Source of the DNA: Jiangella ureilytica
Lineage (GTDB): Bacteria; Actinomycetota; Actinomycetes; Jiangellales; Jiangellaceae
Direction: 5' to 3'
Assembly (NCBI RefSeq): GCF_004348545.1
Contig: NZ_SMKL01000032.1
Span: 1-64,000 of the forward strand
DNA: 64,000 nucleotides
In this document: positions 42,298 through 60,498 of the stretch, in pieces
Position numbering within the stretch: the stretch's first letter is position 1
How the letters are laid out: each line of letters begins with the position of its first letter
Translations under genes and position numbers: made by a program
The notes under the pieces: generated by a model
Told to the model about the DNA's origin: nothing
The model's database searches: none
The model's input: only the letters and a program-made list of their open reading frames with translations

Positions 42298-44016
42298 TCA
42301 GCCCTCGGCTGCGGGCTCCACCCGCGCGCGAGCCCCGGCCGACGCCGTCGCCCCTGCCGTGGCCGCAGCTGACGCCGTCGCCGTCACGACCGCCGCCGCC
42401 GGTCCGCGGTCCTTCGCCGGGCCGTACAGGGCGCGGCCGGGCCGCGCGCCGGTGAGGGCGCCGTCGCGCAGCACCGCCGTCCCCGACACGAAGACGTCGT
42501 CGACACCCTCGGCGAACTGACGAGGGCGCTCGAAGGTGGCCGGGGCGAGGCTGCGCTCGAGCGAGAAGACGATGACGTCGGCCACCGCGCCGTCGCGCAG
42601 GACTCCGCGATCGGGCAGGCCGAGGCGCTGGGCGGGGAACGACGACATCTTGCGGATCGCCTCGGGCAGGCTGAGCAGCCGCTCCTCGCGAACGAAGTCG
42701 GCCAGGACCCGGGTGAAGCAGCCGTAGGCGCGCGGGCTCGGGGCCAGGCCGATGAAGACGGAGTCGCTGGCGATCATGCCGAGCGGGTGGCAGACGAACT
42801 TCCACAGCGTCATCGCGTGCGGGCTGGGCCGCGTGAACGTGGCGCCCGGGTTGGCCGCCACGAGGCCGCAGACGGCAGCGCCGAGCGAGCTGCCCAGCGT
42901 GCTGACGACCTCGCTCAGGTACCAGCCCTCGAAGCGGTCCCACTCGGGGCTGGTCAGGTAGCCCAGCCGTAGGTCGGAGAACGGAGCGCTGGCGACGTAC
43001 TGCCGGGCCGCACCGCTGGCTTCGATCTCGGCGGCGATGCGGTCACGGGTCCCGCCGTCGGCGAGCCGTTCGCGGAGCCTGTCGGGGCCGCCCTCCTGCG
43101 CCCAGAGCGGCAGCAGCCGGCTCAGCCGGGTGCCGCCCCACTCGTAGGTGTAGGTGTCGAAGGTGACGTCGAGGCCGGCGTCGCGCTCGTCCTGCAGCAG
43201 GTCGAGCATGCGCTGCGCCCCGCCGGCGTACGACGCGCGGGCGGACCGAGAGAAGTGCGTGACCTGCAGCGGAGCGCCCGACCGGCGGGCGATGTCGACC
43301 GCCTCGCGGAACGGGTCGAGGTAGGTGTCGCCCAGGCCGTAGCGGACGTGGGTGTGGTACATCCCGCCCAGCTCGGCCGCCTCGGCCGCCAGCGCGACCA
43401 GCTCGTCGGTCGTGGCGTGCGCGCCGGGCGGGTAGTCCAGGCCGGTCGACAGCCCGAAGGCGCCGTCGTACATCGCCTCGCGGACCTGGGCCCGCATGCG
43501 GTCGAGTGCGGCGCCGTCGGCGACGCCCGGCTCCCAGCCCAGCGCGTTGACCCGCAGCGCCGTGTTGCCGACCATCGTCGCGACGTTGACGGCGACGGCG
43601 CGGTCGTAGGTGGCGAGCTGGTCGGCGATGGAGCGCCAGCCCAGCGGCTCGGCGGGGAGCCCGGCGATGCCGGCGTTCTGCTCCGCGAACGCGCTCAGGT
43701 CGGCCGGCCGGTCGTACGGCGCGTAGGAGAGGCCGTCGACGCCGATGACCTCGGTGGTGACGCCTTGGCGGATCTTCATCTCCAGGTCGGGGTCGCCGAG
43801 GAGCACGAGGTCGGAGTGGCTGTGCAGGTCGATGAGGCCGGGCGCGACGAGGCGGCCGGTGGCGTCGACGCGCTCGCGGGCCGGCACGTGCTCCGTCGAG
43901 CCGCGCAGCAGCGTCACCCTGCCGTCCCGGAAGCCGACGGCGGCCGTGAAGGCCGGGTTGCCGGTGCCGTCGACGACGGTGCCGTGCTCGATGAGCACGT
44001 CGAAGGGGGCGCTCAC
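42298..44016 (-). CDS. N-acyl-D-amino-acid deacylase-type amidohydrolase
   Basis: 572 residues. The metal-binding strand DLHSHSDL has His65 and His67; TTEVIGVDGLSYAP follows, where classical D-aminoacylases have a bridging Cys (GNCG) and this protein has Asp. Later blocks (GLDYPPGA, YHTHVRYG, LQVTHFS) are those of the family. The last 40 residues are an Ala/Thr-rich tail with no homology. The GTG at 44016 overlaps the dehydratase stop as GTGA. It would hydrolyse an N-acyl amide in the cytoplasm, and its coupling to a sugar-acid dehydratase suggests an N-acylated sugar acid or amino-acid conjugate as substrate. Confidence 0.85.
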   Translation of the reverse strand: MSAPFDVLIEHGTVVDGTGNPAFTAAVGFRDGRVTLLRGSTEHVPARERVDATGRLVAPGLIDLHSHSDLVLLGDPDLEMKIRQGVTTEVIGVDGLSYAPYDRPADLSAFAEQNAGIAGLPAEPLGWRSIADQLATYDRAVAVNVATMVGNTALRVNALGWEPGVADGAALDRMRAQVREAMYDGAFGLSTGLDYPPGAHATTDELVALAAEAAELGGMYHTHVRYGLGDTYLDPFREAVDIARRSGAPLQVTHFSRSARASYAGGAQRMLDLLQDERDAGLDVTFDTYTYEWGGTRLSRLLPLWAQEGGPDRLRERLADGGTRDRIAAEIEASGAARQYVASAPFSDLRLGYLTSPEWDRFEGWYLSEVVSTLGSSLGAAVCGLVAANPGATFTRPSPHAMTLWKFVCHPLGMIASDSVFIGLAPSPRAYGCFTRVLADFVREERLLSLPEAIRKMSSFPAQRLGLPDRGVLRDGAVADVIVFSLERSLAPATFERPRQFAEGVDDVFVSGTAVLRDGALTGARPGRALYGPAKDRGPAAAVVTATASAAATAGATASAGARARVEPAAEG

Positions 44017-45188
44017 CGGGTGCCGCCCAGGTCCAGGACGAAGCGGGGCTCGGAGCGGTCCAGCTCGTCCAGCCGCAGCCGCGGGCCGAGGCCCGGTGAC
44101 GGGTCCACCCGCCAGACGCCGCCGTCGACCCGCGGCGGGTTCTCGACGTAGCGCTCCCAGTACGGCGCCTGCTCGGGCGTGATCATCGACTCGCTCATGA
44201 GGAAGTTCGGCAGGGTGGCCGACAGCTGCCAGGTCGCCGCGCTCTGCAGTGGCCCGAACGGGTTGTGGAAGGCGACGGAGACGCCGTGCGTCTCGGCGAG
44301 CGTGGCGATCTTCTTCGCCGCCGTCAGCCCGCCGCAGATGCCGACGTCGGGCTGGGCGACGGCGACCGAGTGCTGTTCGATGAAGGGCGCGCTGGAGAGG
44401 TGGTTGCCCCAGCGCTCCCCCGCCGCGATGGGCGTGCTGACCCGGCTCGACACCTCGCGCAGCCAGTCCGGGCGCTCGTAGGGCACCGGCTCCTCGATGA
44501 ACGTGAGGTCGTACGGTGCCAGCGCCTCGGCCAGCCGGATCGAGTTCGCGACGTTCAGCCGGCCGTGGCAGTCGACCATGAGGTGGACGTCGGGGCCGGC
44601 GGCCTCGCGGGCGGCCTCGAAGAACTCGGCGATGTAGCCGAAGATCCATGGCGGCAGCAGCTCGGTCTCGGTCTGGCGGGCCGGGACCAGTTGGCCGTGC
44701 TCGTGGTGGACGCTGGTCACCTTCTCGTAGAACCCGGGCAGCGTCGTCTTGACGGCCCGGAACCCCGCGTCGACCCGGGCGCGCACCGTCGCCGCCAGCG
44801 CGTCCGGCGACTCGCCGGCCCTGGCGTGGGTGTAGACCAGCACCTCGTCGCGGAACGCGCCGCCGAGCAGTCGGTGCACGGGCACGCCCAGCACCCGCGC
44901 GTTGAGGTCCCACAGCGCCATGTCGATGGCGCTGATGCCGATGGTCAGCAGCGTCCCCCCGAGGAACGCGTCGCGGTACATCCGCTCGCTGAGCTGCTCG
45001 ATCCGAGTCGGGTCCTGACCGCGCAGCTCGTCGCCGAGCTCCTCGAGCAGCGCCACGATCGACCGCGTCCGCCGCCGCATGGCGACCTCGGCCTCCCCGA
45101 CCGCGCCGTCGTCGGTCTCGACCCTGACGTACACGGCGTTGTAGAAGCCGAAGTCCACCGGCCACGAGCGAATTCGATCGATCCTCAT
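44013..45188 (-). CDS. Enolase-superfamily sugar-acid dehydratase (mandelate racemase/ManD-like)
   Basis: 391 residues. Metal ligands are Asp206, Glu232 and Glu258 (DCHGR, IEEP, GERW); His208 and His308 (FHNPFGPLQ) are positioned as acid/base residues as in gluconate/mannonate and galactonate dehydratases; Lys147 in RAVKTT is the second base position. Such enzymes remove water from C2-C3 of an aldonate or aldarate to form a 2-keto-3-deoxy acid. The ATG at 45188 has GGAGG five bases upstream; the GTG at 45194 overlaps that site and is rejected. The promoter (TTGCTA, 17 bases, TAGGTT on the minus strand, 45206-45234) carries the regulon motif over its spacer and -10. Confidence 0.87.
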   Translation of the reverse strand: MRIDRIRSWPVDFGFYNAVYVRVETDDGAVGEAEVAMRRRTRSIVALLEELGDELRGQDPTRIEQLSERMYRDAFLGGTLLTIGISAIDMALWDLNARVLGVPVHRLLGGAFRDEVLVYTHARAGESPDALAATVRARVDAGFRAVKTTLPGFYEKVTSVHHEHGQLVPARQTETELLPPWIFGYIAEFFEAAREAAGPDVHLMVDCHGRLNVANSIRLAEALAPYDLTFIEEPVPYERPDWLREVSSRVSTPIAAGERWGNHLSSAPFIEQHSVAVAQPDVGICGGLTAAKKIATLAETHGVSVAFHNPFGPLQSAATWQLSATLPNFLMSESMITPEQAPYWERYVENPPRVDGGVWRVDPSPGLGPRLRLDELDRSEPRFVLDLGGTR

Positions 45189-45206
45189 GGGCACCTCCTT
45201 CCTAGA

Positions 45207-45221
45207 ACCTAGGACTTAGGT
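45207..45221. promoter_or_regulatory. Regulon motif, site A (dehydratase promoter)
   Basis: ACCTAGGACTTAGGT (read on the other strand as ACCTAAGTCCTAGGT) matches the perfect site at 62214-62228 at 12 of 15 positions. It overlaps the -10 and spacer of the predicted dehydratase promoter and lies 74 bases upstream of the GntR start, where it could also autoregulate. Confidence 0.6.
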
Positions 45222-45294: not shown

Positions 45295-46080
45295 GTGGCG
45301 CGATCCGGCACAGAGGTGGACGGGCCCGCGCCCGCCGCGCGCGACGACCGCCTCACCCGTCGGCTGTCCGACCACGGCCGCCGCGTCCCCCTCGGGGTCC
45401 AGGTGGCCGAGCGCATCCGCGCCGACATCTCCAAGGGCGGCCTGCAGCCCGGTGACGAGCTGCCGTCGGAGTCCGAGTACGGCGAGCGCTTCGACGTCAG
45501 CCAGCGCGTGGTCCGCGACGCGCTGCGCACCCTCAACAACGAGGGCATCATCTCGACCCGGCAGGGCAAGCGCGCCGTCGTCGGCAGCCTCCGCCCGGCC
45601 GCCATGGGCAACTACATCCGCTTCCTCGTCGACACCGACCCCGCGGCCATCGACGAGCTGATGGACTTCCGCGCCCTGCTCGAGGGGCACGCCGCCCGGC
45701 TGGCCGCCGAGCGCGCCTCCGACGACGACATCGCCGAGATGAAGCGCGCCCTGAACCGGGTGCTCGAGACCGGCGACGACCTCGAGGCGCGAGTCCCGGC
45801 CGACCTGCGCCTGCACGAGCTGATCTCGCAGTCCTGCGGCAACCGGCTGGTCGACAGCATGCTGCAGGTGCTGTCCGAGACGCTGGCCGAGGAACGACGA
45901 CGAGGCGCGCAGATCACGCGGTCGAAGGGCATCGGGCACGACGAGACCAACCAGCAGCACGTCGCGCTGGTCGAGGCCATCGCCGCCCGCGACGGCGACG
46001 CCGCCGAACGGCGCGCGGTCGAGATCGTCCAGCGGGCGCTGGGCTACTGGTCCGCGGCCGCCCGCCATGACGGGTCCTGA
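45295..46080 (+). CDS. FadR-subfamily GntR regulator, proposed master of the 42-63 kb regulon
   Basis: 261 residues. The winged helix (about 30-100) shows LPSESEYGERFDVSQRVVRDAL and the wing TRQGKRAVV; the FCD domain (about 115-250) carries the metal-site residues DLRLHELI and NQQHVALVEAI. The GTG at 45295 was used; a GGAGAGG lies 14 bases upstream, rather far, so the start is not certain. Its 3' end overlaps the start of the cytosolic propeller gene by 14 bases. Its position at the centre of the locus and the shared 15-bp palindrome at three promoters make it the likely repressor. Confidence 0.87.
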   Translation: MARSGTEVDGPAPAARDDRLTRRLSDHGRRVPLGVQVAERIRADISKGGLQPGDELPSESEYGERFDVSQRVVRDALRTLNNEGIISTRQGKRAVVGSLRPAAMGNYIRFLVDTDPAAIDELMDFRALLEGHAARLAAERASDDDIAEMKRALNRVLETGDDLEARVPADLRLHELISQSCGNRLVDSMLQVLSETLAEERRRGAQITRSKGIGHDETNQQHVALVEAIAARDGDAAERRAVEIVQRALGYWSAAARHDGS

Positions 46081-48526
46081 CGGCTCCTGGCTGACGCCGC
46101 GGGCCGTCGCGAACCGCGGTTCCAGTCCGCTGACCGGGACGGGCGCGCCGCCGCGCGCCGCCGCGTCGTGGTCCACCGGCGCCGACGTCCGCCAGGTCGC
46201 GGAGTTCACCGGGCCGGACGGGGCGCCGTGTGTCCTGGTGCTGGCCGGCGCGACGCTGCAGGCGTGGACGTGGGACGGGGCGCTGATGTGGTCGGACGGG
46301 ACGTCCGCGGTGACGCGGGTCCTGCACGTGCGCGACGGGACCGCTCTCGTGTTGTCGGGCGAGCGGCTGGTGCGGCGGATCGCATCGTCGACCGGCGCCG
46401 AAACCTGGCGCGACGCGGCCCCGGACGGGACGAACCTGTCCGGGCCGGGGTCGTCGAAACTGGCCCGTGTGGGCGGGCGGACGCTCTGGTTCACCGCGCC
46501 CACCTACGCGACCGCCGTCACGTGCCGCGAGCTGCTGCCCGACGGCACTGTCGACACACTGTGGGTGCGCGACTTCGGCGGCCACTACGACACCGGCTTC
46601 GGCCCGGTCATGGTGGTCGCCGACGTGCTCGGCGGCGGCGTGCCGCAGCTGCTGCTGTCGACCCGCACCGGCTCGGACTACGGCACCGGAGACGACGACG
46701 TCAGCAGCGAGCGACTGGTGCTCGGCCGCGAGGACGGCCGGCTGCTGCAGGTCGTGCTCGACATCTCGACCGGCGCGACGGTGACCGAGGTCGCCTACCG
46801 TCCCGACCCCGGCGACTACCCGTGCGCCCGCCCGTACGGCCTGCTCACAACGGCGTCTGGGCCGGGCGGGCGCGTCGTGGTCATGGTGAGCTGCCAGGTC
46901 GAGGAGTACTACGCCGTCACCCGGGTCGGCGGCGGCGAGCTGTCGCGGGCGTGGGGGCGGTTCGTCGAGAAGGACTGGCCGCACGACGCCCAGGAACTCC
47001 GACCACAACTCACCTCCCTCGTCGAGCGGCCGGGCGCGAACCCGTGGCTGGTCACCGGCCACCACGACGGCGTCACCTGGAGCACCGTCGTCGACGACGC
47101 CGTCACCGGCGCGCGCGTGCGGTCGCTGCCCGGCCACTACTTCTGGGGCACGCACGACGGCGGCCGGCTCGCGATCGTCTCCCCGGCGACCACGCGGACG
47201 CTGACCGGGCGGGAGCCGACGCTGGCGGTGCGGCTGGACGACTGGGGAGTCGTGCGGTCGCACGACGGTCACCCGGTGGTGTGCGGCACGGATGAGCTGC
47301 CGGCCGACGTGTCGTTCCACGCCGAGCGGCGGTCCGTGGTCGGCCTCGCCGGCGGGCTGATGACGCGGCGTCCGGACGGTGCGGCGGCCCTGTGGTCGCC
47401 GGCTTCCGGCGCGACGGTGACCCTGCCCGTGGGCGACACGGTCGCGGCTCATCCGAGTGCCGGCGGCGCCGTCGTGCTGGTGACGGGCGACGGTGCGTTG
47501 CATCGGGTCAGGCCCGATCTGTCTCCGGGTGGCGTGGTGCGGCCGGCCGGGCGCCGGGCGCAGGCGCTCGTCGTCACCGACCACGACCGGCCGGTACTGG
47601 TGCTCGACGGCGAGCGCTCCAGTAGGGCGATCGAGCTGGACGGGGTTGCGCGCGCCTTGCCGGGCCGGGTCGTGGCGGCCGCGCGCGAGCCGTCCGGTGC
47701 CGCCGTCGTCGCCTGTCTCGAGGACGACGGCGTGAGCTGTCACCGTCTCGGCGACGGTGCCGTGGCGGGTGCGGTCCGCACTGCCGGCCGGCCGACTCAT
47801 GCGGTGCTGTTCGACGAGGCGCGGCTGCTGCTGGTGGCCGCCCGGACCGGCGTGCATACCGCGACCATCGGCGTCCACCGCCTGGACGGCGAGCCACTCT
47901 GGACCGATCCCGACCAGGGCCCGCACCCGAACCTCCCCGCCGTCGCGCGGGATGCCGACGGCCGCCGGCTGGTCGCGTACGACGATCACGGCCAGCTCAC
48001 TGTCCGCGACGCTCTGACGGGCGAGGTGCTCGCGAAGGACGACTGGACGGCCGCCTACACGACACCCGTGCGGGTGGATGATCCCGCCGGCTGGCTGCGG
48101 GTGGGCGGGATCCACGGCGTCGACGCGGTGGACGAGGCCGGTGTCGTTCGCTGGCGGCGGGGTGCACCCCTGTGGACGTACCACCCCGGCGAGGCGGCGC
48201 TCGCGGGTTCCGTGCTCGGGTGTGTGACGCGCGACGGCCGGTTGGACGCCTTCGCAGTCGGCGACGGACGGGTGGTGTGGAGCGTCGAGCTGGGGGCGGT
48301 CGCACATCGGGCGCCGCTGGTCGCGGTGACGCTCGGGGGTGGCTGGAGCTTCGTGGCCGGGACCGCCCGGGGCACGCTGGTCGCCATCGACGCGGTGAGC
48401 GGGCAGCGGCTCGAATGGTCCGTGGAGCTCCGCGTCGCCGTCGAGACCCTCGCCGTCGGTGACTTCGGCGGGCCTCGCCTGCTGGCCGGGACCGCCGACG
48501 GCGTCGTCCACGCGATCGCGTTCTGA
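46067..48526 (+). CDS. Cytosolic PQQ/WD-like beta-propeller protein, coupled to the GntR gene
   Basis: 819 residues, no signal peptide and no membrane segment. It is built of repeated beta blades with PQQ-type W/L-x-x-G signatures (ALMWSDG, TGAETWRDA, DEAGVVRWRRG, DGRVVWSVELG, SGQRLEWSVEL). Its start region (SWLTPRAVANRGSSPL) resembles the propeller at 50278 (WSLPRADARNTGHQPL), so these are relatives. The ATG at 46067 lies inside the GntR gene in another frame, so the two are translationally coupled. There is no catalytic motif. It may be a scaffold or an adaptor that modulates the regulator; this is speculation. Confidence 0.75.
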   Translation: MTGPDGSWLTPRAVANRGSSPLTGTGAPPRAAASWSTGADVRQVAEFTGPDGAPCVLVLAGATLQAWTWDGALMWSDGTSAVTRVLHVRDGTALVLSGERLVRRIASSTGAETWRDAAPDGTNLSGPGSSKLARVGGRTLWFTAPTYATAVTCRELLPDGTVDTLWVRDFGGHYDTGFGPVMVVADVLGGGVPQLLLSTRTGSDYGTGDDDVSSERLVLGREDGRLLQVVLDISTGATVTEVAYRPDPGDYPCARPYGLLTTASGPGGRVVVMVSCQVEEYYAVTRVGGGELSRAWGRFVEKDWPHDAQELRPQLTSLVERPGANPWLVTGHHDGVTWSTVVDDAVTGARVRSLPGHYFWGTHDGGRLAIVSPATTRTLTGREPTLAVRLDDWGVVRSHDGHPVVCGTDELPADVSFHAERRSVVGLAGGLMTRRPDGAAALWSPASGATVTLPVGDTVAAHPSAGGAVVLVTGDGALHRVRPDLSPGGVVRPAGRRAQALVVTDHDRPVLVLDGERSSRAIELDGVARALPGRVVAAAREPSGAAVVACLEDDGVSCHRLGDGAVAGAVRTAGRPTHAVLFDEARLLLVAARTGVHTATIGVHRLDGEPLWTDPDQGPHPNLPAVARDADGRRLVAYDDHGQLTVRDALTGEVLAKDDWTAAYTTPVRVDDPAGWLRVGGIHGVDAVDEAGVVRWRRGAPLWTYHPGEAALAGSVLGCVTRDGRLDAFAVGDGRVVWSVELGAVAHRAPLVAVTLGGGWSFVAGTARGTLVAIDAVSGQRLEWSVELRVAVETLAVGDFGGPRLLAGTADGVVHAIAF

Positions 48527-48625: not shown

Positions 48626-48661
48626 TGATAGGACCTAGGTCATGTAACTAAGGTCCTAGGT
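48626..48661. promoter_or_regulatory. Regulon motif, sites B1 and B2 (secreted propeller promoter)
   Basis: Two copies: TGATAGGACCTAGGT at 48626-48640 and ACTAAGGTCCTAGGT at 48647-48661. Each matches ACATAGGTCCTATGT at 12 of 15 positions, B1 when read on the other strand. Their centres are 21 bases apart, two helical turns, and they end 20 bases before the ATG at 48682, so binding would block transcription of the secreted propeller genes. Confidence 0.65.
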
Positions 48662-48681
48662 CCTGTGGTAAGGAGCCCGCC

Positions 48682-50241
48682 ATGCCACGTCGTCACCTGT
48701 TCCGGAACGTCATCGCCGCGGTCGGCACCCTTGCGACCACCGCCGCCGGGCTCGGCCTCACCGCCGTCCCGGCCCATGCCGTCGACCCCGAGGACGGCAC
48801 CGTCATCCAGCTCTCCGACGGAAGCTACCTGCCGATCGTGCCCGTCACCGGGCACTCCCCCGTCGAGGCCGTCGGCTACCGAGTCAGCGGTGGGCAGTTG
48901 CGCGCCTACGACCAGGACGGCGTCCAGCTGTGGGCGCGTTCCACCACCGGCACGCAGTTGTCCGGCGGCTACGACTTCGACGCCGACGGCTGGCCGGACG
49001 TCGCCGTCGTGATCTCGGCCAGCGCCGGCAGTACCTGCGGCGTCTCGCCCCTCACCACCACGACGCTGCACTTCTACCAGGGCGCCACCGGCACCCAGCA
49101 CACGCCGCTGAGCCCGCTGAGCGACATCTGCTGGTCGTTCCCGGGCACGACCCCGTACCCGACGCACCAGTGGTCGGAGCTCGCACCGCTGTGGGGTGAC
49201 GAGACCAGCACGCTGTTCACGTCGCCCTACTACGCGACGACGTCGTGGTACCTCGGGTTCGCGAGCGGGTCGTTCACCACGGCCGGCGCGCTCTACTACC
49301 CGTCGACGTCGTCGTACGACGCCACGTACACGAACGCACAACCCAACACCTACCCCACCGGTACCGACTACATCCAGTACGCGCACGTCGCGAACGGCCT
49401 CGTGACCTCCGTATCCGGACAGAACCGGGCCGTCTTCTGGACCAGCGGCCGCGTGCTGCAGTACGCGATCGGCGCGCTGAGCAGCAGTCAGCTGGTCGCC
49501 GACCGGCCGTACCTGACCGGCGGGCGCACCGACATCGCCGGGCGCAACTACGGTCTGGTCGCCGTCGACCCCGGCAGCCCGAACTCGATCGTCCTGCTGG
49601 CCGGCACGAGCAACTACTCGCTCTACCAGGACGCGATCACCGGCACCCAGTCCTACGACGTCTGGGGCGGCATCGAGCGGCACGTGTCGATCTACAACGC
49701 CGCCGCGAACACCGTCCAGGACCGGTTCTTCAGCTACGCCCACGACAACAACGACGGGCACCGCTACCAGAACCGCGTCTCCTACCCCGCGCACCCGTTC
49801 GTCCGGCGCGCGGGCGCCTCGCGGCTGGCCTACAACGTGTTCCGCGACGGCCGCTGGCGCCTGCACGTCAGCCAGGCCGGCTCCACGACCTCGCTGTACG
49901 AGCTCGACGACGTCTTCCTGTGGGACATCGCCGACCTCGACGGCGACGGCACGCCGGAGTGGCTGATCAGCCCGACCCGTTACGGCACCGACCCGCTGGG
50001 CCCGGCCTACTACTTCCCGAAGTGGCAGACCGGCGCCTACCACTGGGACGAGACGGCGCTGACCCTCACCAGCATCGCCTCCTTCCCCGGCGTCATCCCG
50101 CATCTGCAGAAGTCGTTCACGACGGCGAACACCACGAGCAGCGACGGCTCCCTGGCGAGCGTGCCGATCGTCGCCGACTCCGGCGGGCTCGAGTTCCTGG
50201 TGCGCACCAGCGCCGGAGCCGTGGAGCGCCGCACCCTCTGA
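48682..50241 (+). CDS. Secreted protein of unknown function, FG-GAP/propeller-like
   Basis: 519 residues. Sec signal peptide with likely cleavage after VPAHA near residue 33. The mature protein is rich in Tyr, Ser and Thr, with short calcium-type loops (DFDADGWPD, DLDGDGTPEW) and repeated strands; no catalytic signature is recognisable. A GTAAGGAG ribosome site precedes the ATG. It is followed after 36 bases by a Tat-exported propeller on the same strand. The pair probably forms a surface or extracellular binding module for the substrate of this locus. Confidence 0.75.
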   Translation: MPRRHLFRNVIAAVGTLATTAAGLGLTAVPAHAVDPEDGTVIQLSDGSYLPIVPVTGHSPVEAVGYRVSGGQLRAYDQDGVQLWARSTTGTQLSGGYDFDADGWPDVAVVISASAGSTCGVSPLTTTTLHFYQGATGTQHTPLSPLSDICWSFPGTTPYPTHQWSELAPLWGDETSTLFTSPYYATTSWYLGFASGSFTTAGALYYPSTSSYDATYTNAQPNTYPTGTDYIQYAHVANGLVTSVSGQNRAVFWTSGRVLQYAIGALSSSQLVADRPYLTGGRTDIAGRNYGLVAVDPGSPNSIVLLAGTSNYSLYQDAITGTQSYDVWGGIERHVSIYNAAANTVQDRFFSYAHDNNDGHRYQNRVSYPAHPFVRRAGASRLAYNVFRDGRWRLHVSQAGSTTSLYELDDVFLWDIADLDGDGTPEWLISPTRYGTDPLGPAYYFPKWQTGAYHWDETALTLTSIASFPGVIPHLQKSFTTANTTSSDGSLASVPIVADSGGLEFLVRTSAGAVERRTL

Positions 50242-50277: not shown

Positions 50278-53085
50278 ATGCCCCCCGTACGTCGCCGAAC
50301 GTTCATCGCCGGCACCGCCGGCACCGCCGCCCTGGCCGGCCTCCCCGCGATCCCCGGCCTGTCCGCGACCGCCACGGCGGTCACCGGCGGCGGCCAGATC
50401 ACCCCCGGCCAGTGGTCACTCCCCCGCGCCGACGCCCGCAACACCGGCCACCAGCCGCTCCCCGGCGGCCTGCGCCGGCAACCGAAGGTGGTGGCCAGCG
50501 CCTACCTGGGCGGGTCGACGCCGTGGGTCATGGCGGCCGACCTGGACAGTGACGGGTCGACGTCGCTGCTGTTCCTGACTGCGGGCTCGGTCGTCGCGAC
50601 CGGCCCGCGGCTGGAACCGCGCTGGTCCGCACCCGGCCTGTCCCCCGCCGACATCGCCGGCGTCTACGACCTCGCCGGCGACGGCGGCCGCCAGGTGGTC
50701 GTCATCGGCACGACGACGGTCGCGGCGCTCGACGCCGCGACCGGCGAGCTGCTGTGGTCGCACGACTTCGGCGCCGTCGTCGCGTTCGACTGGATGAGCA
50801 TCGGGCCGGTCGCCGCCGGCGTCGCCGGGCAGCAGATCGTCGTCTGGCCGTACCTGAGTCCCGTCGGCATCGCGTTCGCCTTCGACCGCGGCGTCGCCGG
50901 CGGCTACGAGCTGTGGCGGACGTCGCCGGACTACGTGCAGCCCGCCTACGCGCCCGAGCTGGTCATCGGCGACGCCGACGGCGACGGCCGCACCGAGCTG
51001 GTCATCGCCGGCTACGGCCAGATCCTGGCGTACGACGGCGCCACGGGCGCGCTGCGCGACACCGGCAGCGGCTGGCGCGGCCGCGCCGACTGGATCACCG
51101 GACCGAACGTCGACGGCCGCAACTACGGCCAGGTGCAGCTCATCGAGCTCGACGGCGACGGACGGCTGGAACTGGTCGAGGTGTGCGACGGCGTCACGCT
51201 GCACGCCGCGGTCGTCGACAGCGACGCCACCGGGCTCTCGCTGCTGTGGGACGAGTTCGTCGAGTATCCCGAGAGCGGCAAGTCGCTGCGCACCACCGTC
51301 AACGGCGTCGGCGACCACGACGGCGACGGCCGGGTCGAGATCGCGGTGTCGCTGTTCAACCACACCGGCGACGGCCGCTGGCACGTCGTCGTCATCGACG
51401 CGCTGCAGGGATTCGCCGGCCCGGTCAAGGCCGACCTCGTCGACCGCTATCTGTGGGGCGTCCAGGACCTCGACGGCGACGGCCGCAGCGAGCTGCTGGT
51501 CGCCGTCACGACCGACCAGACCCCGCCCGCCGTCGCCGAGCTCGAGCTGTACGCGCTCGACGACGCCGGCGCGTGGGCCCGCACGTGGTCGCTCGCCGAC
51601 GCGCAGTACGTCATGGACCCGCACTCGCCGGTCCCGGCGACGCTCAGCCCGCACTCGCGCACCGGCCGCTCCGAGGTGCTGCGGCCCGGCCCGCTGGGCT
51701 CGTTCGTCGTGCGCGCCGGCGGCGAGCTGCGCGGCTTCACGTTCGCCGGTGGCGCCGTCACGCAGACCTGGACCCGGACCGACGACGGCGGCGTGCTGCA
51801 CCGGGCCGGCGATCTCGACGGCAGCGGCACGGCGACGGTGCTCTACCAGCTGCCGTCGGGCGAGCTGCAGGCGGAGGACGCCGCCGGCACGGTGCTCGGC
51901 AGCACCCGGCTCGGCGCGCTGGTCTGCGACCCGATCGTCGCCGACCTCGACGGGCGCGGCCGCAGCAGCGTCATCGTCAGCGCGTTCGACGAGATTCGCG
52001 TACTCGATCTGCGCGGCAAGACGTTCAGGGAGCGCTGGCGGGTGCCCGGCCGCGGCGAGTACGTCTACCTGGGCGGGCTGCAGTCGGCGACGGCCGCGGA
52101 CCTCGACGGCGACGGCCGCGCCGAGGTGGTGTTCGTCGACGCCGCCGGGCCCCGGTCGCGGCTGCGCGTGCTCGACGGCGCCGGCCACGAGGTGTGGAGC
52201 CACGTCTTCGACGACCTGCCCGCGCCGACCTTCGTGGGCCCCAACGGCGTGTACCTGTGGACGTTCGGCGACTTCACCGGCGACGGACACCTGGACGTCT
52301 ACGTCGGGGCGAACAAGGCCGGCTACAACACCGAGGTCTCGCGGTTCCTCGACGGCCGCGACGGCACGCTGCTGGCCGGCCGCGACAACGACGGACCCGG
52401 TCACGCGGGCGGGCAGTTCGGCCCGTGGGTCGGCCCGCCGGCCGCCGCGGACACCGACGGCGACGGCGTCGACAACGCGTTCTTCCTGGCCGCCGACCTG
52501 CTCTACGACGTGAACGGGACCGACGTCGCTGACCCGGGGATCGTCCAGGGCCACGTCGGGCTCTACCACACCCCGATCCTGGTCGACGTCGACGGCGACG
52601 GCGCCCTGGAGGTCGTCCTGGCGGCCGGGTTCGACTACCTCGACGTCGTCACGTTCGCGTCGTCGCCGTCCGGCAGCACGCTCTGGCGGGTCGCCACCGT
52701 CCCCGGCGCCCACCTCGGCCGCCAGCCCGGCATCGCCGACGTCGACGGCGACGGCGTGGTCGAGCTCGGGGTCCTGCTGAACGACGGGACCTTCGAGTGC
52801 CGCAACGCCGCGACCGGCGCGCTGCTGTGGACACACGACCTGGGCGCCGCCGGCAGCGCCGTCACCACCGTCGACGCCGACCGCGACGGCAACCCCGAGT
52901 TCGTCGTCGGCACCGTCGACGGCCGGGTCGTCTGCCTCACCTCGGACGGCGGGCGGGCGCGGATCGTGTGGACGGTCGAGCTCGGTCACAAGCTCGGCGA
53001 CGTGGTCGCGGCCGACGTCGACGGCGACGGCCGCAGCGAGCTGCTCGTCACCGCCGACGACGGCTACCTCTACGTGATCGCCTGA
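50278..53085 (+). CDS. Tat-exported FG-GAP/PQQ-like beta-propeller protein
   Basis: 935 residues. The N-terminus carries a twin-arginine signal (RRRTFIAG followed by an Ala/Leu-rich stretch). The rest contains about a dozen D-x-D-x-D-G-type loops (DADGDGRTE, DHDGDGRVE, DLDGDGRAE, DVDGDGALE, DVDGDGVVE, DVDGDGRSE), the calcium-binding loops of FG-GAP/VCBS blades, along with PQQ-like strands (GELLWSHDFG, GALLWTHDLG). Probably a large calcium-stabilised propeller outside the membrane. No active-site motif is identifiable, so binding is more likely than catalysis. Its stop is part of a stem-loop shared with the convergent operon. Confidence 0.78.
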   Translation: MPPVRRRTFIAGTAGTAALAGLPAIPGLSATATAVTGGGQITPGQWSLPRADARNTGHQPLPGGLRRQPKVVASAYLGGSTPWVMAADLDSDGSTSLLFLTAGSVVATGPRLEPRWSAPGLSPADIAGVYDLAGDGGRQVVVIGTTTVAALDAATGELLWSHDFGAVVAFDWMSIGPVAAGVAGQQIVVWPYLSPVGIAFAFDRGVAGGYELWRTSPDYVQPAYAPELVIGDADGDGRTELVIAGYGQILAYDGATGALRDTGSGWRGRADWITGPNVDGRNYGQVQLIELDGDGRLELVEVCDGVTLHAAVVDSDATGLSLLWDEFVEYPESGKSLRTTVNGVGDHDGDGRVEIAVSLFNHTGDGRWHVVVIDALQGFAGPVKADLVDRYLWGVQDLDGDGRSELLVAVTTDQTPPAVAELELYALDDAGAWARTWSLADAQYVMDPHSPVPATLSPHSRTGRSEVLRPGPLGSFVVRAGGELRGFTFAGGAVTQTWTRTDDGGVLHRAGDLDGSGTATVLYQLPSGELQAEDAAGTVLGSTRLGALVCDPIVADLDGRGRSSVIVSAFDEIRVLDLRGKTFRERWRVPGRGEYVYLGGLQSATAADLDGDGRAEVVFVDAAGPRSRLRVLDGAGHEVWSHVFDDLPAPTFVGPNGVYLWTFGDFTGDGHLDVYVGANKAGYNTEVSRFLDGRDGTLLAGRDNDGPGHAGGQFGPWVGPPAAADTDGDGVDNAFFLAADLLYDVNGTDVADPGIVQGHVGLYHTPILVDVDGDGALEVVLAAGFDYLDVVTFASSPSGSTLWRVATVPGAHLGRQPGIADVDGDGVVELGVLLNDGTFECRNAATGALLWTHDLGAAGSAVTTVDADRDGNPEFVVGTVDGRVVCLTSDGGRARIVWTVELGHKLGDVVAADVDGDGRSELLVTADDGYLYVIA

Positions 53086-53175
53086 CCCCACCTCGTTGAT
53101 CGTGGAGTGGCTGCAGGGTTCCGGTCCGGAAGGGTCCGATCGATTCCGCGGTCACTCCACGATCGACGTGGGTCA
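53083..53175. terminator. Bidirectional stem-loop enclosing both convergent stop codons
   Basis: GATCGTGGAGTG (53098-53109) pairs exactly with CACTCCACGATC (53153-53164), and outside it TGACCC (53083-53088) pairs with GGGTCA (53170-53175). The two TGA stops of the convergent genes are the outermost bases of the structure. The inner loop is 43 bases. The GTTGATCGTGGAGTG string looks like a dispersed intergenic element of actinomycetes, but copy number cannot be tested here. Confidence 0.65.
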
Positions 53176-54138
53176 GGAGTGCGGAGGGAGGGCGCCGGAC
53201 TCGAGGGCGGCGAGGACGCGGGCGGCCGGCAGCACGTCGGCCGCCTGCACCGCCGGCGGCGGGCCACCGGCGACGGCGTCGAGGAAGGCGCGGTCCTGGG
53301 CGGTGACGGCGTCGAACTGCACGGTCGCGACGTCGCCGCCGTCGAAGACGACCTCGCCGTTCTCGCGCAGCACGGGGCCGTCGACCAGCAGCGTCCGCTC
53401 GGGCGCGATGACCAGGAAGTCGCTGACCGCCTCGCGCGAGTGGTACGAGATCGCCACCGACGCCAGCCGGCCGTCGTCGGTCACGAAGGCGCCGGCCACG
53501 TCCATGGGCGCGCCGCTGCCGGGCCAGGCCGGGCCGGCCGTCCCGGTGACCGTCACCGGCGTGGGCGGGCGCAGGTGCCAGAGCGCCGCGTCGACGGCGT
53601 GGCCGCCGTGGTGCCAGACGGCGCTGTCGGTCCAGTCGCGCGGCTTGCCGGTCCAGCCCATGTCGGTCTGGCGCAGCATGAGCTGGCGCACCACCACGAG
53701 CGAGGGCAGGGTGCCGGTCGACTCTAGCCGGTCCTGCAGCCGGCGGTGCGGCTCCCAGTAGCGCAGCGTGTGCCCGACGGCGGCGACGCGGCCCGCGCGT
53801 GCGGCGGCCGCCGCGACAGCCGACGCCTCGTCGGCGGACAGGCCGGCCGGGATCTCGCAGAGCACGGGCCGGCCGGCCTCCAGCACCGCCACCGACTGCG
53901 CCGCGTGCAGGTGGCTCGGGGTCGCGATGATGACGGCGTCGACGTCGTCGTCGGCGAGCAGGTCGTCCAGCGCCTCGTAGGTGCGCCGGACCCCGTGCGC
54001 CGCCGCGAACTCCGCCAGCTCGTCCGGCTTCGGCCCGGCGACGGCGACCGGCGTGACGCCGAGCCGGGCCAGCGCCTGCGCGTGCACGTCACCGATCGCT
54101 CCGGGGCCGACGATCGCCACCCCGCCCGAGAAGCTCAT
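53173..54138 (-). CDS. Gfo/Idh/MocA-family protein with altered EKP motif
   Basis: 321 residues. The Rossmann motif is VGPGAIGDVHAQAL at the N-terminus; the alpha/beta C-domain has DSAVWHHGGHAVDAALW, where the His pair is in the family active-site position. The usual catalytic-face EKP is CEIPAGLS, with Ile in place of Lys, so hydride transfer geometry may differ. The ATG at 54138 overlaps the preceding stop as ATGA. Last gene of the ten-gene operon that starts with the binding-protein gene at 62130. Confidence 0.85.
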   Translation of the reverse strand: MSFSGGVAIVGPGAIGDVHAQALARLGVTPVAVAGPKPDELAEFAAAHGVRRTYEALDDLLADDDVDAVIIATPSHLHAAQSVAVLEAGRPVLCEIPAGLSADEASAVAAAAARAGRVAAVGHTLRYWEPHRRLQDRLESTGTLPSLVVVRQLMLRQTDMGWTGKPRDWTDSAVWHHGGHAVDAALWHLRPPTPVTVTGTAGPAWPGSGAPMDVAGAFVTDDGRLASVAISYHSREAVSDFLVIAPERTLLVDGPVLRENGEVVFDGGDVATVQFDAVTAQDRAFLDAVAGGPPPAVQAADVLPAARVLAALESGALPPHS

Positions 54139-54926
54139 CGCGCTCCCTCCGTCGCCGACGACACGGTGGCCGGCAGCCCGAACACCCGAGCCGCCGTGCC
54201 GCCGAGCACGCCGGCCGCCTGCTCGGCGTCCAGGCCCCAGTGCGAGAGCGCCAGCTCGACGGCGGCGTCGTACTCCCCCGCGGCGAGGCCGGCCCGGTTC
54301 CAGTCGCCGCTCCACATGATCCGCTCCGGCCCGAACGCGGCCAGCAGGCGGTCCAGGTACGGCCGCGCGTCGGGATACGGGTACGCCGTGCCGGCGTTGG
54401 CGAAGAAGCCGGACCACATGACGCTGACGTTCGGCAGCTCGGCCAGCTCCAGCAGCCGCGGGAACGCCTCGACGTCCGGCGAGCCGGGACCGTACCGGAA
54501 CCAGCCCAGGTGCTCGAGCCGCACGTGCAGCCGTCGCCGCTCGGCCACCACGGAACGCAACCGCGACGACACGACGTCGGCGAACGGACCGGTGAGGCTG
54601 ACGACGGCGCCGGCGTCGTCGAGCACGTCGAACACGGCGTCGCCGCTGCCGTCCGGGAGGCCCGACGGCGCCACCCGCAGGCCGGCGAACCCGGCGGAGA
54701 GCAGCGCCGCGGCGTGCTCGGCGGTCTCGGCGATCGCGACACCGGCGAACCGCGCCGGCTCGGACCGGACCGCGTCGAGCAGGTACCGGTTGTCGGTGGT
54801 GCCGAGGTGCTGGACGAGCACGGCCCCGGCGATGTCCGACGCCGCCATGGCCGCCCGGTAGTCCTCGATGGGGGCGTACTTCGGCGGCCCGGTGTGGACG
54901 TGCGCGTCGACGACGGGCGGGCGCAT
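54135..54926 (-). CDS. TIM-barrel amidohydrolase (amidohydrolase 2 family)
   Basis: 263 residues. The N-terminal DAHVHTG supplies two metal-binding His, and the C-terminal IMWSGDWNRAG supplies the Asp of the mononuclear metal site. This matches the family of decarboxylases, lactonases and hydrolases called amidohydrolase 2 (for example 2-pyrone-4,6-dicarboxylate lactonase and fuconolactonase-like enzymes). The stop/start arrangement with the upstream gene is TGATG. A lactone hydrolase role would fit a sugar-acid pathway. Confidence 0.8.
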   Translation of the reverse strand: MRPPVVDAHVHTGPPKYAPIEDYRAAMAASDIAGAVLVQHLGTTDNRYLLDAVRSEPARFAGVAIAETAEHAAALLSAGFAGLRVAPSGLPDGSGDAVFDVLDDAGAVVSLTGPFADVVSSRLRSVVAERRRLHVRLEHLGWFRYGPGSPDVEAFPRLLELAELPNVSVMWSGFFANAGTAYPYPDARPYLDRLLAAFGPERIMWSGDWNRAGLAAGEYDAAVELALSHWGLDAEQAAGVLGGTAARVFGLPATVSSATEGAR

Positions 54927-55657
54927 CACGCGACGTCCACCGTGGCGCAGGCGGCCCGGAAGTCCTCCGCCGTCGCGGTGTAGCCGACGTTGCACTCGAT
55001 GTGCCGGATCGCCAGGAAGTTGGCCCAGCCGCCCTCGCGGGTCTCGGGGAACTCGAACGTCGACACGCAGTCGCGCAGCACGACGACGCGGTAGTTGCGG
55101 TACAGCGCGTCGGTGACGGTGGTGCCGAGACAGACCCGGCTGTCGAACCCGACGACGACCAGGTTGCGGACGCCGCGGTTGCGCAGCGCGCTGTCGAGCC
55201 CGGTCTCGTGGAACCCGCTGTAGTACTGCTTGCGGATGAGCACGTCGTCGTCGTCCGGGGCGATGACCTTCGAGTGCTCGAGGATCGGCGTCGGCGCCTT
55301 CCACGCGGTCAGCACGTCGACGTCGCAGACCCGCTGCGACATGTTGCGCCACTCGTTGCCCTCGTCGATGCCGGGCGACAGGTAGTTCGTCAGGTAGACG
55401 GTGGGCAGCCCGACCGCGCGCGCCGCGTCCTTCACCGGCCGGATCTTGTTCCGGACGATGTCGCGGGTCGCCTCGTCGACCTCGTAGATGCCGTCGAGCC
55501 CCTCGGGCACCTCGTCGTCGAAGCCGGCGCCGTAGACGTCGACGATGAGCAGCGCGGTGTCGTCGAGCCCCAGCTCCAGCTCGTCCTCGGCGTGCCCGAG
55601 CGGCGAGTCGATGGTCGGGTACAGCCGGTAGTAGCGGCCGGGCAGGCGCAGCGTCAT
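54926..55657 (-). CDS. Isochorismatase-like cysteine hydrolase
   Basis: 243 residues. The triad is visible: Asp in LLIVDVYGAGF near residue 40, Lys in IRKQYYSGFHETGLD, and Cys in GFDSRVCLGTTVTDAL. This is the family of isochorismatase, nicotinamidase, ureidoacrylate and biuret hydrolases. The ATG at 55657 overlaps the HIBADH-type gene stop as ATGA. In this operon, amide hydrolysis is more likely than isochorismate cleavage. Confidence 0.85.
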   Translation of the reverse strand: MTLRLPGRYYRLYPTIDSPLGHAEDELELGLDDTALLIVDVYGAGFDDEVPEGLDGIYEVDEATRDIVRNKIRPVKDAARAVGLPTVYLTNYLSPGIDEGNEWRNMSQRVCDVDVLTAWKAPTPILEHSKVIAPDDDDVLIRKQYYSGFHETGLDSALRNRGVRNLVVVGFDSRVCLGTTVTDALYRNYRVVVLRDCVSTFEFPETREGGWANFLAIRHIECNVGYTATAEDFRAACATVDVA

Positions 55658-56549
55658 GGTCGGTCGTCCTCCTCGACGGTGGGGGCGTCCGCCCGGTCGC
55701 GGACGGCGTGCCGGTACAGCGCCTGGGTGCCCAGGTCGCCGCCGCCGGCGCCGGACAGCCAGCGGTAGCGCTCGCGGGCGGACCGGCCGGCGGCGAGGTC
55801 GAGCCCGTGCTCGTCGCCCTCGGCCAGCGCCAGGGCGAGGTCCTTGATCATGTGGTCGACCTTGAAGCCGGGCGCGAGATCGCCCCGGATCAGCCGCGGC
55901 CACATGAACTCCAGCAGCGGGCCGGTGCCCAGGCCGCGTCCCACGACGCCGGCGACGACCTCGGGGTCCAGCCCCAGCGCCTCGCCCAGGGCCCAAGCGT
56001 CGGCGATGCCCCCGGCGATCCCGCCGATGAGCAGCTGGTTCACCAGCTTCACGCTCTGCCCGGTGCCGGGCCCGCCGATCAGCACCGGAGTTCCCAGCAC
56101 CTCGAACGCCGGCCGGGCACGCGCGAACGCCTCGGGCGAGCCGCCGGCCATGATCGTCAGGGTGCCGGCCGCCGCGCCCATGGGACCGCCGGAGACCGGG
56201 GCGTCCAGCGCGGCCACACCGCGTTCCGAGCCCGCGGCGGCGAGCCGGCGGGCCAGCTGCGGCGGGCTGGTGGACATGTCGGCGACGACGGCGGGCGGCG
56301 CGGCCGCGGCGAGCAGCCCGGACGGGCCCAGGACCGCAGCCTCGACGGTGTCCGGGTCCGGCAGCACCGTGATGGCGAGGTCGGCGCCGTCGCCCGCCGC
56401 CGCCGCGGAATCCGCCCACGATGCGCCGGCCGCCAGCACCGCCTCGGCGCTCTCCTTGCGCCGCGAGTGCACCGCGACCTCGTGCCCCGCGTCGACCAGC
56501 CGCTGGGCCACGGGCCGGCCCATGAGGCCGATCCCGACGACTGCGATCC

Positions 56550-56553
<4 letters not shown>
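55654..56553 (-). CDS. HIBADH/tartronate-semialdehyde-reductase-family dehydrogenase
   Basis: 299 residues. N-terminal VGIGLMGRPVAQRL is the NAD(P)-binding motif, DAPVSGGPMGAAAGTL is the family substrate-binding signature, and Lys in GQSVKLVNQLL is the catalytic residue. The family comprises 3-hydroxyisobutyrate dehydrogenase, tartronate semialdehyde reductase and related beta-hydroxyacid dehydrogenases. The GTG at 56553 overlaps the ABC ATPase stop. Reduction of a semialdehyde from an aldolase step would fit the locus. Confidence 0.87.
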
Positions 56554-57658
<1,105 letters not shown>

Positions 57659-57662
<4 letters not shown>

Positions 57663-58672
57663 CGCCCCGCCCCCACCCGGTCGGCCTCCGACGGGAAGTG
57701 ACACGCGACGTGCAGCGCCCGGCCTTCGGCGCTGCCCGGCCACGCCGTCGTGCACTGCTCCGGCTCGCCCAGCTCGGCGAAACGGCGGCAGCGGGCGTGG
57801 AACCGGCAGCCCTGCGGCCAGGCGGCGGGGTCCGGCGGCATGCCCGGCACCGTCTCGAGCTGCTCCGGCGGCACCCCGCCCAGCGGCGGAATGCTGCCGA
57901 GCAGGGCTGCGGTGTACGGGTGCCGCGGGGCCGTGAGCACCTCGTCGACGCCACCCTGCTCGACGACCTGGCCGGCGTACATCACCACGACCCGGTCGCA
58001 GATCTCGCGGACCGTGCTGATGTCGTGCGTCACGAAGACGATGGCCGTGCCCAGCTCGTCGCGCAGCTGCACCAGCAGCCGCAGGATCTCGGCCTGGATC
58101 GACACGTCGAGGGCGGTGGTGGGCTCGTCGGCCAGCAGCAGCATCGGCTCGTTCTGCAGGCCCAGCGCGATGGCCGAGCGCTGCTGCATGCCGCCGCTCA
58201 GCTCGTGGGGGTACGCGGCCAGCGCCTGCTCCGGGCGCGGCAGCCGGGCCCGTCGCAGCGCGTCGAGCGCCCGGCCGCGGCGCTGCTGGGAGTTCAGCTC
58301 GGGCCGGTGGGTGCGCAGGCTGAGCCGCAGCTGCTTGCCGACCCGGGCGACGGGGTTCAGCGCGGCACCCGCGTCGGACGGGATCAGCGCCACCTGCCGG
58401 CCGCGCAGCGACCGCAGCACCGACGGGTCGGCGCCGCGCAGGTCGCGGCCGGCGAAGGTGATGCTGCCGTCGACGACGCGGCCACCCGACGGCAGCAGGC
58501 CGAGCAGCGCGAGCAGGGTCAGGCTCTTGCCGCAGCCGGACTCCCCCACGATGCCGACGATCTCGCGCTCGCCGACCTCGAACCCGACGCCGTCGACCGG
58601 CCGTGAGACGCCGGCGCCGTGGCCGAACTCCACGGCGAGGTCGCGCACGCTGAGCAGCGGCTGGTCGGTCAT
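57659..58672 (-). CDS. ABC transporter ATPase, OppD/DppD type, with changed Q-loop
   Basis: 337 residues. Walker A GESGCGKS, signature LSGGMQQR, Walker B LLLADEPTTALD and switch His in FVTHD are standard. The Q-loop, normally with IxQD, reads VALIPSDAGAALNP, so the conserved Gln is replaced by Ser. The C-terminal Cys cluster (CRFHARCRRF and late CHF) is present. Asymmetric ATPase pairs are known in ABC importers, so one weakened site can be tolerated. Coupled by ATGA to the permease gene upstream. Confidence 0.9.
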
Positions 58673-59526
58673 GTGCTGGCCCCCTGCGGGTCGAGCCGGT
58701 CGCGCAGGACGTCGGCCATGATGTTGATGCCGAGGACGACCAGCAGGATCGGGACGCCGGCGATGACGCCGATCCACGGATGGCTGAGGACGAAGCCGCG
58801 CGACTGCGCGAGCAGCGAGCCCCACGACGCGTCGGGCGGCTGCACGCCCAGCCCGAGGAAGCCGAGGCCGGCCTCGTCGAGCACGGCGAAACCGAGCAGC
58901 ACCGTCGTCTGGACGATGAGCAGTGGCAGCAGCGCCGGCACGATCTCCTTGCGGATGATCCGCCACCGCCCGGCGCCGATCACCCGGGCGGCGTCGGTGT
59001 AGGCGAGGTCGCGGACGCCGACGACGGCACTGCGCACCAGCCGCGCGTAGAACGGCCAGAACGCCAGCCCGAGCGCCAGCATCGTCGTGGTGAACGACGG
59101 GCCGAAGATCCCGACGATGCCGATGGCGACCAGCAGCGTCGGGATGGCGAAGAACAGGTCCACCACCCGCATGACGGCGAGGTCGACCCAGCCGCCGAGG
59201 TACCCGGTCAGCAGCCCCAGCGGGACGGCGATGGCCGACGCCAGCGCCACCGTGCCCACCGCGATCAGCATCGTCATCCGCCCGCCGACGGCCATGCGGG
59301 TGAACAGGTCGCGGCCGAGGTCGTCGGTGCCGAACCAGTGCTCGGCCGACGGCCCGGAGAACCGCGCGTCCAGATCGGTGGCGTTCGGGTCGTACCCGGA
59401 GACCAGCGGCCCGACCAGCATGAACAGCGCCAGGAGCCCCAGCAGCCCGCCTCCGACGAGCAGCTTCCAGCCGCGTCTGACCCGGGGGCCGTCGGCGGTC
59501 GCGGCGACCACCGCGACGGCGCTCAC
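58669..59526 (-). CDS. Peptide/nickel-type ABC permease, DppC type
   Basis: 285 residues with an N-terminal OppC_N segment (HWFGTDDLGRDLFTRM is the hallmark) and about six membrane segments. The cytoplasmic EAA-like loop is DAARVIGAGRWRIIRKEIVP. Start GTG at 59526 overlaps the DppB stop. Part of the importer together with the DppB-like permease. Confidence 0.92.
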   Translation of the reverse strand: MSAVAVVAATADGPRVRRGWKLLVGGGLLGLLALFMLVGPLVSGYDPNATDLDARFSGPSAEHWFGTDDLGRDLFTRMAVGGRMTMLIAVGTVALASAIAVPLGLLTGYLGGWVDLAVMRVVDLFFAIPTLLVAIGIVGIFGPSFTTTMLALGLAFWPFYARLVRSAVVGVRDLAYTDAARVIGAGRWRIIRKEIVPALLPLLIVQTTVLLGFAVLDEAGLGFLGLGVQPPDASWGSLLAQSRGFVLSHPWIGVIAGVPILLVVLGINIMADVLRDRLDPQGAST

Positions 59527-60467
59527 GTGAGCCTCACCCGCGGGTCGAGCAGGCCCTGCAGGACCTCGGCCACGACGTTCACGACGATGAAGATCGCCCC
59601 GTAGACCAGCATCAGCGCCTGGATCATCGGGTAGTCGCGCTCACTGACGCCGGCCGCGACCAGCCGGCCCATGCCGGGCCAGTTGAACAGCTCCTCGACG
59701 ACGATCGAGCCGGCCAGCAGGAACCCGACGGTGAGCGCGATCGCCACGATGAGCTGCGGGAGCGAGATCCGCAGCACCACGGTGCGGGCCACCGTGGCCT
59801 CCGGCAGGCCCTGCGCCCGGGCGTAGGAGACGCTCGGCTCGCCGCCGGTCTCGACGACGGCGGTGCGGGTCAGCCGGGCGAGGTACGGCGCGATGGCCAG
59901 CCCCAGCGTCAGGGCCGGCAGCACCAGCAGCCGCAGGTTCTGCGCCGGGTCGACGTCGAACGGCACGTAGCCCTGGCTCGGCAGCCAGCCCAGCTGCAGC
60001 GCCAGCAGCAGCATGAGCAGCGTCCCCAGCCAGAACCCGGGGGTCGCCAGGCCGACCAGCGTCGCCCCCGTGATGACGTTGTCGGCGCGGCTGCCGCGCC
60101 GGAACCCGGCGTACAGCCCGGCCGGGATGGCGAGGGCCAGTCCGACCAGCAGCCCGCCGAGCGCCAGCTCCAGCGTCGCCGGGATGCGGTCGATCAGGAT
60201 GTCCGACACCGGCATGCGCGACCGGTACGACAGCCCGAAGTCGCCGGTCACGACGTTGCCCAGCCAGCTCGTGTACTGCTGGTACCAGGGCTCGTCGAGG
60301 CCGAGCTGGTCGCGCAGCCGCGCGACCAGCTCCGGATCGCTGTTCACCCCGAGCATCGCGGTCACCGGGTCGCCCGGGATGACCCGGACGTAGGCGAAGG
60401 CCAGGATGCTCAGGCCGAACAGCAGCGGGACGGCGAGCAGGAGGCGTCGCAGGATGTACTGGACCAC
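59523..60467 (-). CDS. Peptide/nickel-type ABC permease, DppB type
   Basis: 314 residues. The start YILRRLLLAVPLLFGLSILAF and the PGDPV motif near residue 33 are typical of DppB; the cytoplasmic loop ARAQGLPEATVARTVVLRISLP and the late EELFNWPGMGRL block are conserved. The GTG at 60467 is preferred over the GTG at 60473 because GGAGG lies five bases before it. Preceded by the binding-protein gene with a 31-base gap. Confidence 0.92.
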   Translation of the reverse strand: MVQYILRRLLLAVPLLFGLSILAFAYVRVIPGDPVTAMLGVNSDPELVARLRDQLGLDEPWYQQYTSWLGNVVTGDFGLSYRSRMPVSDILIDRIPATLELALGGLLVGLALAIPAGLYAGFRRGSRADNVITGATLVGLATPGFWLGTLLMLLLALQLGWLPSQGYVPFDVDPAQNLRLLVLPALTLGLAIAPYLARLTRTAVVETGGEPSVSYARAQGLPEATVARTVVLRISLPQLIVAIALTVGFLLAGSIVVEELFNWPGMGRLVAAGVSERDYPMIQALMLVYGAIFIVVNVVAEVLQGLLDPRVRLT

Positions 60468-60498
60468 CGGCACCTCCCTCCCTGGACGGCAGTGTGCG

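Follow-up and report, generated by a model that had tools for sequence, protein, structure and literature searches.

A beta-propeller protein without an export signal and its FCD-type GntR neighbour in a conserved gene cluster of Jiangella

Results

Organization of the locus and the overlapping gene pair

The DNA analysed here (the window) is a stretch of 64,000 nucleotides from the 6.35-Mb genome of Jiangella ureilytica. It contains two plus-strand genes that share 14 nt (46067..46080), read in different frames, one for a FadR/FCD-family GntR regulator (45295..46080) and one for an 819-residue tandem beta-propeller protein that has no signal peptide (46067..48526) and has orthologues in six other Jiangella. 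To their left, on the minus strand, are genes for an enolase-superfamily (MR/MLE) dehydratase-like enzyme (44013..45194), ~73% identical in other genera, and a D-aminoacylase-like amidohydrolase (Amidohydro_3; 42298..44016), whose GTG start overlaps the stop of the enolase-family gene by 4 nt. To their right are two plus-strand genes for exported proteins, a 519-residue Sec-exported protein (48682..50241) with homologues in the clusters of other genera and a Tat-exported FG-GAP double propeller (50278..53085). These are followed on the minus strand by genes for a Gfo/Idh/MocA oxidoreductase (53173..54138), an amidohydrolase_2 (PF04909) enzyme (54135..54926), an isochorismatase-like hydrolase (54926..55657), a 3-hydroxyisobutyrate-dehydrogenase-like enzyme (55654..56553) and, supported by synteny, an oligopeptide-type ABC importer with two ATPases, two permeases and a binding protein (56550..62130), and on the plus strand by a DHDPS-family aldolase/lyase gene (62246..63190). 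The whole cluster is conserved in Jiangella, and membership of the propeller in a GntR-linked cluster, proposed in a sequence-only reading of this DNA, was supported. At the end of the cluster lies an aminoglycoside 3-N-acetyltransferase family gene (PF02522; 63174-63980), possibly for a pathway acyltransferase.

Both genes of the overlapping pair have the codon-position GC of real genes. Upstream of its ATG the propeller frame stays open as far as position 45824, and this part contains no further ATG, GTG or TTG and is hydrophilic when translated. As there is neither another start codon nor a hydrophobic N-terminal stretch, no signal peptide is hidden behind an alternative start, in agreement with the earlier claims that the protein carries no export signal and that its ATG lies 14 nt inside the regulator gene in another frame. 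No Shine-Dalgarno-like sequence precedes the propeller ATG when the sequence is read directly, and the two genes are probably translationally coupled across the overlap.

The propeller gene was found in six of the 11 other Jiangella genomes, each time directly after gntR, and the overlap is maintained at 4–20 nt in all seven genomes with the gene. A GntR orthologue (at least 83% identity) is present in exactly the same genomes, although this co-occurrence does not single out the pair since the whole cluster is gained or lost together. At least five other neighbouring gene pairs in the cluster also overlap, by 1–4 nt (enolase/amidohydrolase, amidohydrolase_2/Gfo-Idh, isochorismatase/amidohydrolase_2, 3-hydroxyisobutyrate-dehydrogenase-like/isochorismatase and ABC ATPase/3-hydroxyisobutyrate-dehydrogenase-like), as do the two importer permease genes. 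Overlaps are therefore common across the cluster and mark operons here, making the coupling of gntR and the propeller gene ordinary. This bears on the proposal, drawn in the sequence-only reading from the coupling, of a direct partnership, perhaps for ligand presentation. In the regulatory form considered here, the propeller would bind GntR and present or withhold its inducer, so that both act as one sensor. The retention of the overlap in seven Jiangella is in keeping with such a partnership, as is the published statement that the products of coupled genes are often subunits of the same complex (PMC10666635).

Fold, family and conserved signature of the propeller protein

The 819-residue protein matches the PQQ-like family PF13360 (4e-10; 40.2 bits against a gathering score of 27.6), as had been anticipated from its sequence. 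Its AlphaFold model (AF2, mean pLDDT 83) has ~17 four-stranded blades and is best read as two propellers, with the boundary between them unsure at that number of blades and an N-terminal strand that may close the last one. The protein scored below the thresholds for BamB (TIGR03300, 26.4 bits versus 285), whose signal it also lacks, and for PQQ-dependent dehydrogenases (TIGR03075, 10 bits versus 480). It has none of the DxDxDG loops of FG-GAP/VCBS calcium propellers and did not qualify as a rhamnogalacturonan lyase of family PL11, RGL11_C being seen weakly and in four homologues only. A sequence search of solved structures with the propeller gave repeat-level matches only, to BamB and designed propellers, and a Foldseek search of the PDB with the model returned generic double propellers only, at low TM-scores, the best of which were eukaryotic scaffold propellers. 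No solved enzyme matched beyond generic propeller repeats, and our literature search found no description of this family. Within the Jiangella cluster core the propeller is the fastest-evolving protein, at 71–78% identity versus 72–96% (mostly >83%) for the others.

By far the most conserved part of the protein is residues 241–320, which include a three-part signature: RPYGLL (residues 255–260; 46829..46846, plus strand), which is invariant or nearly so, CQVEEY (residues 276–281; 46892..46909, plus strand) and FVEKDWPxDxxELRPQ (residues 299–314; 46961..47008, plus strand). The signature is long, is not a repeat and is near-invariant in 27 homologues from three phyla, comprising exported and presumably cytosolic forms, with parts of it varying in a few distant rows. 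RPYG, CQVE, W296, D303, P305, E310, LRP and a few other positions are conserved in 95% or more of the 27. When the strand order of the model is phased on the D-strand tryptophan, the three segments are predicted to fall in D-A, B-C and next D-A loops, and would thus occupy one face of propeller 1.

A charged loop set common to the exported and cytosolic forms favours a ligand or catalytic site over a silent scaffold, and the earlier description of the protein as catalytically silent is therefore unlikely to be correct. A scaffold, with the double propeller gathering the cytosolic enzymes of the pathway and leaving their substrate untouched, would be in line with tandem propellers commonly being scaffolds and with the structural matches of the model. 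However, conservation is focused in this short charged segment, which is shared with exported homologues that are unable to scaffold cytosolic enzymes, and we consider such a role distinctly unlikely.

Exported relatives and loss of the calcium loops

Full-length homologues of the propeller were identified in 11 of 201 Armatimonadota genomes, all with a clear hydrophobic N-terminal stretch except one (L060), in which it is weaker as cut. No GntR gene was seen beside these exported Armatimonadota propellers, some of which have a LacI regulator as neighbour. Many exported propellers adjoin genes for a DegT aminotransferase, isochorismatase-like protein, kinase, deacetylase, Gfo/Idh and MR/MLE enzymes. 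Four loci (L065, L067, L068 and L071) share a conserved cluster of exported propeller, DegT, isochorismatase-like, APH kinase, polysaccharide deacetylase, Gfo/Idh and MR/MLE genes, with LacI in some. The isochorismatase-like hydrolase of the window belongs to a subfamily common to the loci of exported propellers, and relatives of it (E<1e-100) were found in 7 of the 11 Armatimonadota genomes with a propeller and in 0 of the 190 others (Fisher 1.4e-10, a value that is indicative only, as the genomes are related, kinship was uncorrected and some isochorismatase sequences were in the search profile). These isochorismatase genes mostly share the propeller locus, together with Gfo/Idh and MR/MLE genes.

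In a maximum-likelihood tree of 30 sequences with a midpoint root, the 14 signal-less proteins formed one group (100/100, one change) whose nearest neighbours were three exported Armatimonadota proteins; the Chloroflexi row has a long branch, and its precise position is uncertain. The number of DxDxDG loops is three to seven (mostly five or six) in the exported proteins, one to three in the signal-less proteins outside Jiangella and zero in those of Jiangella, a loss that would fit a move to the low-calcium cytosol. The Tat-exported protein encoded at 50278 is also a relative. Its kinship with the 819-residue protein had been noted at the N-terminus only; the relationship is real and extends over the full length (profile alignment of 797 columns, E 4e-46). 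A profile restricted to the seven orthologues from Jiangella matched the Tat protein only weakly and locally; the full-length match came from the wider profile. In the tree the Jiangella Tat protein sits on a long branch. The 819-residue protein, which aligns over its full length with the exported CQVEEY double-propeller family defined here and carries its signature, though not its signal peptide, is thus kin to that family by descent and not by location. All close relatives outside the signal-less clade being exported, the propeller could in principle leave the cell even though it has no recognisable signal, and work outside as they do. This is the least probable of the explanations considered, given that none of the 14 homologues begins with a hydrophobic N-terminus and that the calcium loops have been lost.

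Signal-less relatives in other genera

A scan of 84,980 species genomes with two exact peptide patterns, by which relatives can be missed, gave matches besides Jiangella in Acrocarpospora (three), Dactylosporangium (two), Rhizohabitans, one Chloroflexi MAG and two Armatimonadota-type MAGs. Among 396 Actinomycetota genomes drawn from across the phylum the only match was the window's own gene, and the signal-less clade is therefore rare. At the six loci of Acrocarpospora, Dactylosporangium and Rhizohabitans (L017–L021 and L023) the propeller again follows a GntR gene, across a gap of ~30–45 nt that holds a G-rich ribosome site and a 12–14-nt palindrome of the type CTGTC-N4-GACAG, which might serve as an operator or form an RNA hairpin. 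Three extended loci from these genera keep the rest of the cluster in a changed order, namely Gfo/Idh, amidohydrolase_2, isochorismatase-like, 3-hydroxyisobutyrate-dehydrogenase-like, DHDPS-family, amidohydrolase and enolase-superfamily enzymes, the importer and the Sec protein. In Acrocarpospora corrugata only pieces of the gene for the Sec-exported protein are present (L073 14533-14912), while the other cluster genes look intact. No close homologue of the Tat protein was found in the genomes of the six loci.

Among 221 Streptosporangiaceae genomes, four have the propeller and the same four a close isochorismatase (62–67%); a fifth (G922) has a 53% isochorismatase in a diverged cluster with an importer and several enzymes and without the propeller. 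In the Chloroflexi MAG the neighbour of the propeller gene, divergently oriented on the other strand, encodes an FCD-GntR that shares only 30% identity with the Jiangella GntR; enolase-superfamily and Gfo/Idh genes lie beyond it. This homologue had been taken as one without a GntR neighbour, an assignment dropped when the opposite-strand gene was found. All 14 signal-less homologues thus have an FCD-GntR neighbour, including the divergent Chloroflexi one, which is a point in favour of a partnership. Homologues without such a neighbour, which the sequence-only reading had named as evidence against it, occur among the exported proteins, which carry the same signature and stand beside LacI or no visible regulator. 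The separate spacing and palindrome outside Jiangella, or the divergent arrangement, also argue against it.

Rapid evolution and the loss of calcium loops might alternatively indicate a degenerating paralogue, a duplicate of the exported propeller that lost its signal and loops and is drifting towards loss. However, the frame is unbroken in seven Jiangella as well as in six further actinobacteria, the signature is invariant and the gene co-occurs with its cluster, and we regard decay as highly improbable.

The GntR regulator and putative operators

The regulator has the winged helix-turn-helix (PF00392, 9e-17) and FCD (PF07729, 6e-24) domains of the FadR/FCD family. Its nearest solved relatives are 7c7e and NanR (6on4), and NanR is also its best NCBIfam relative, at a score far below every NCBIfam cut-off. 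In its FCD domain (45654-46033) the aspartate and two histidines of the metal site are kept and the third metal-ligand histidine is valine. As the Asp/His site is incomplete, we do not claim a metal-binding FCD. This third position is valine or isoleucine in those actinobacterial regulators examined that are linked to a propeller (one from Jiangella and six others, the latter all with isoleucine), and histidine in a propeller-less Jiangella relative (L072) and in the Chloroflexi regulator beside a propeller. The propeller-less relative is part of a sister cluster in Jiangella genome G003 (L072 4736-13316), which has a 69% identical enolase-superfamily enzyme, DHDPS-family and 3-hydroxyisobutyrate-dehydrogenase-like enzymes, an importer and two Tat-type DUF4838 proteins. 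Its GntR is 43% identical to that of the window and 55% identical to the regulators of the other genera, and such a regulator therefore needs no propeller.

The replaced histidine could be taken to favour a partnership, yet the Chloroflexi regulator retains it beside a propeller, and FCD regulators, NanR among them, bind the ligand themselves (PMC8012715). Together with the propeller-less cluster, these observations leave a direct partnership weakened, though not refuted, and in our judgement unlikely. A more specific form, in which a captured cytosolic propeller became the sensor half of a GntR with a decayed FCD metal site, so that a two-protein regulator senses its ligand by way of the double propeller, is very unlikely.

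Operator-like elements were identified in three intergenic regions. The element CCTAGAACCTAGGACTTAGG (45201..45220), in the divergent enolase/gntR interval, is identical in seven Jiangella and is related to the motif WTAGGNCCTAK. Upstream of the secreted-protein genes is ATAGGACCTAGGTC...AAGGTCCTAGGTC (48628..48662), with a WTAGGNCCTAK site at 48628-48638, and a second site lies between the binding protein and DHDPS-family genes (62216..62226). These two sites are the only ones in the whole 6.35-Mb genome. The Jiangella sites were not detected by a strict palindrome scan and became apparent from comparison of intergenic regions. They are likely operators of this cluster's GntR, in which case the propeller, through gntR's own promoter, is likely a member of its regulon.

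Discussion

The most likely reading of these results, to which we assign a probability of about one half, is that the propeller has an enzymatic or ligand-binding role in the pathway encoded around it. Its ancestor would have been one of the exported double propellers rich in calcium loops; with loss of the signal peptide the protein would have become cytosolic and part of a catabolic pathway. That pathway would comprise the importer and the Gfo/Idh, enolase-superfamily, DHDPS-family, isochorismatase-like and amidohydrolase enzymes and be run by the neighbouring FCD-GntR. A putative conserved pocket in the first propeller may bind or convert the imported compound, candidate steps being lactone opening, mutarotation and lyase or hydrolase action. 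The overlap with gntR would then reflect a shared autoregulated operon, and not a subunit of the regulator. Counting against an enzyme or ligand-binding role are the fast evolution of the protein in Jiangella, which is unusual for an enzyme, the absence of a solved-enzyme match beyond generic repeats, and the G922 cluster, in which an importer and several enzymes are present but the propeller is missing.

Judging from the tree, the loss of the signal and the stepwise loss of calcium loops, a large exported propeller appears to have moved into the cytosol a single time. With its signature and gene neighbourhood named, an uncharacterised family becomes directly testable. Were the regulator partnership true, it would represent a new mode of sensing for GntR proteins.

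Among known systems, the 819-residue protein resembles PQQ-like/BamB-type propellers (PF13360) in blade type and in a remnant of the N-terminal W-x-x-x-R motif, but consists of two propellers and not one, and has no signal or lipobox. FG-GAP/VCBS calcium-loop propellers (PF13517, PF01839) are matched by 9 of 13 aligned homologues, and the exported relatives have DxDxDG loops, whereas the window protein has neither such a loop nor a match to PF13517 or PF01839. The window GntR is like NanR, GlcC, LldR and PdhR in its winged helix-turn-helix and FCD domains and differs from them in the replaced third metal histidine. A precedent for a propeller acting on a compound sensed by an FCD-GntR is offered by NanM/YjhT, a protein of the NanR regulon that is smaller and located outside the cytosol. 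The beta-propeller sialic-acid mutarotase YjhT is cited in a paper on NanR (PMC8012715, ref. 88). We propose this mutarotase, tied to the NanR-controlled sialic-acid pathway, as a functional analogy only, claiming no homology between NanM/YjhT and the window propeller.
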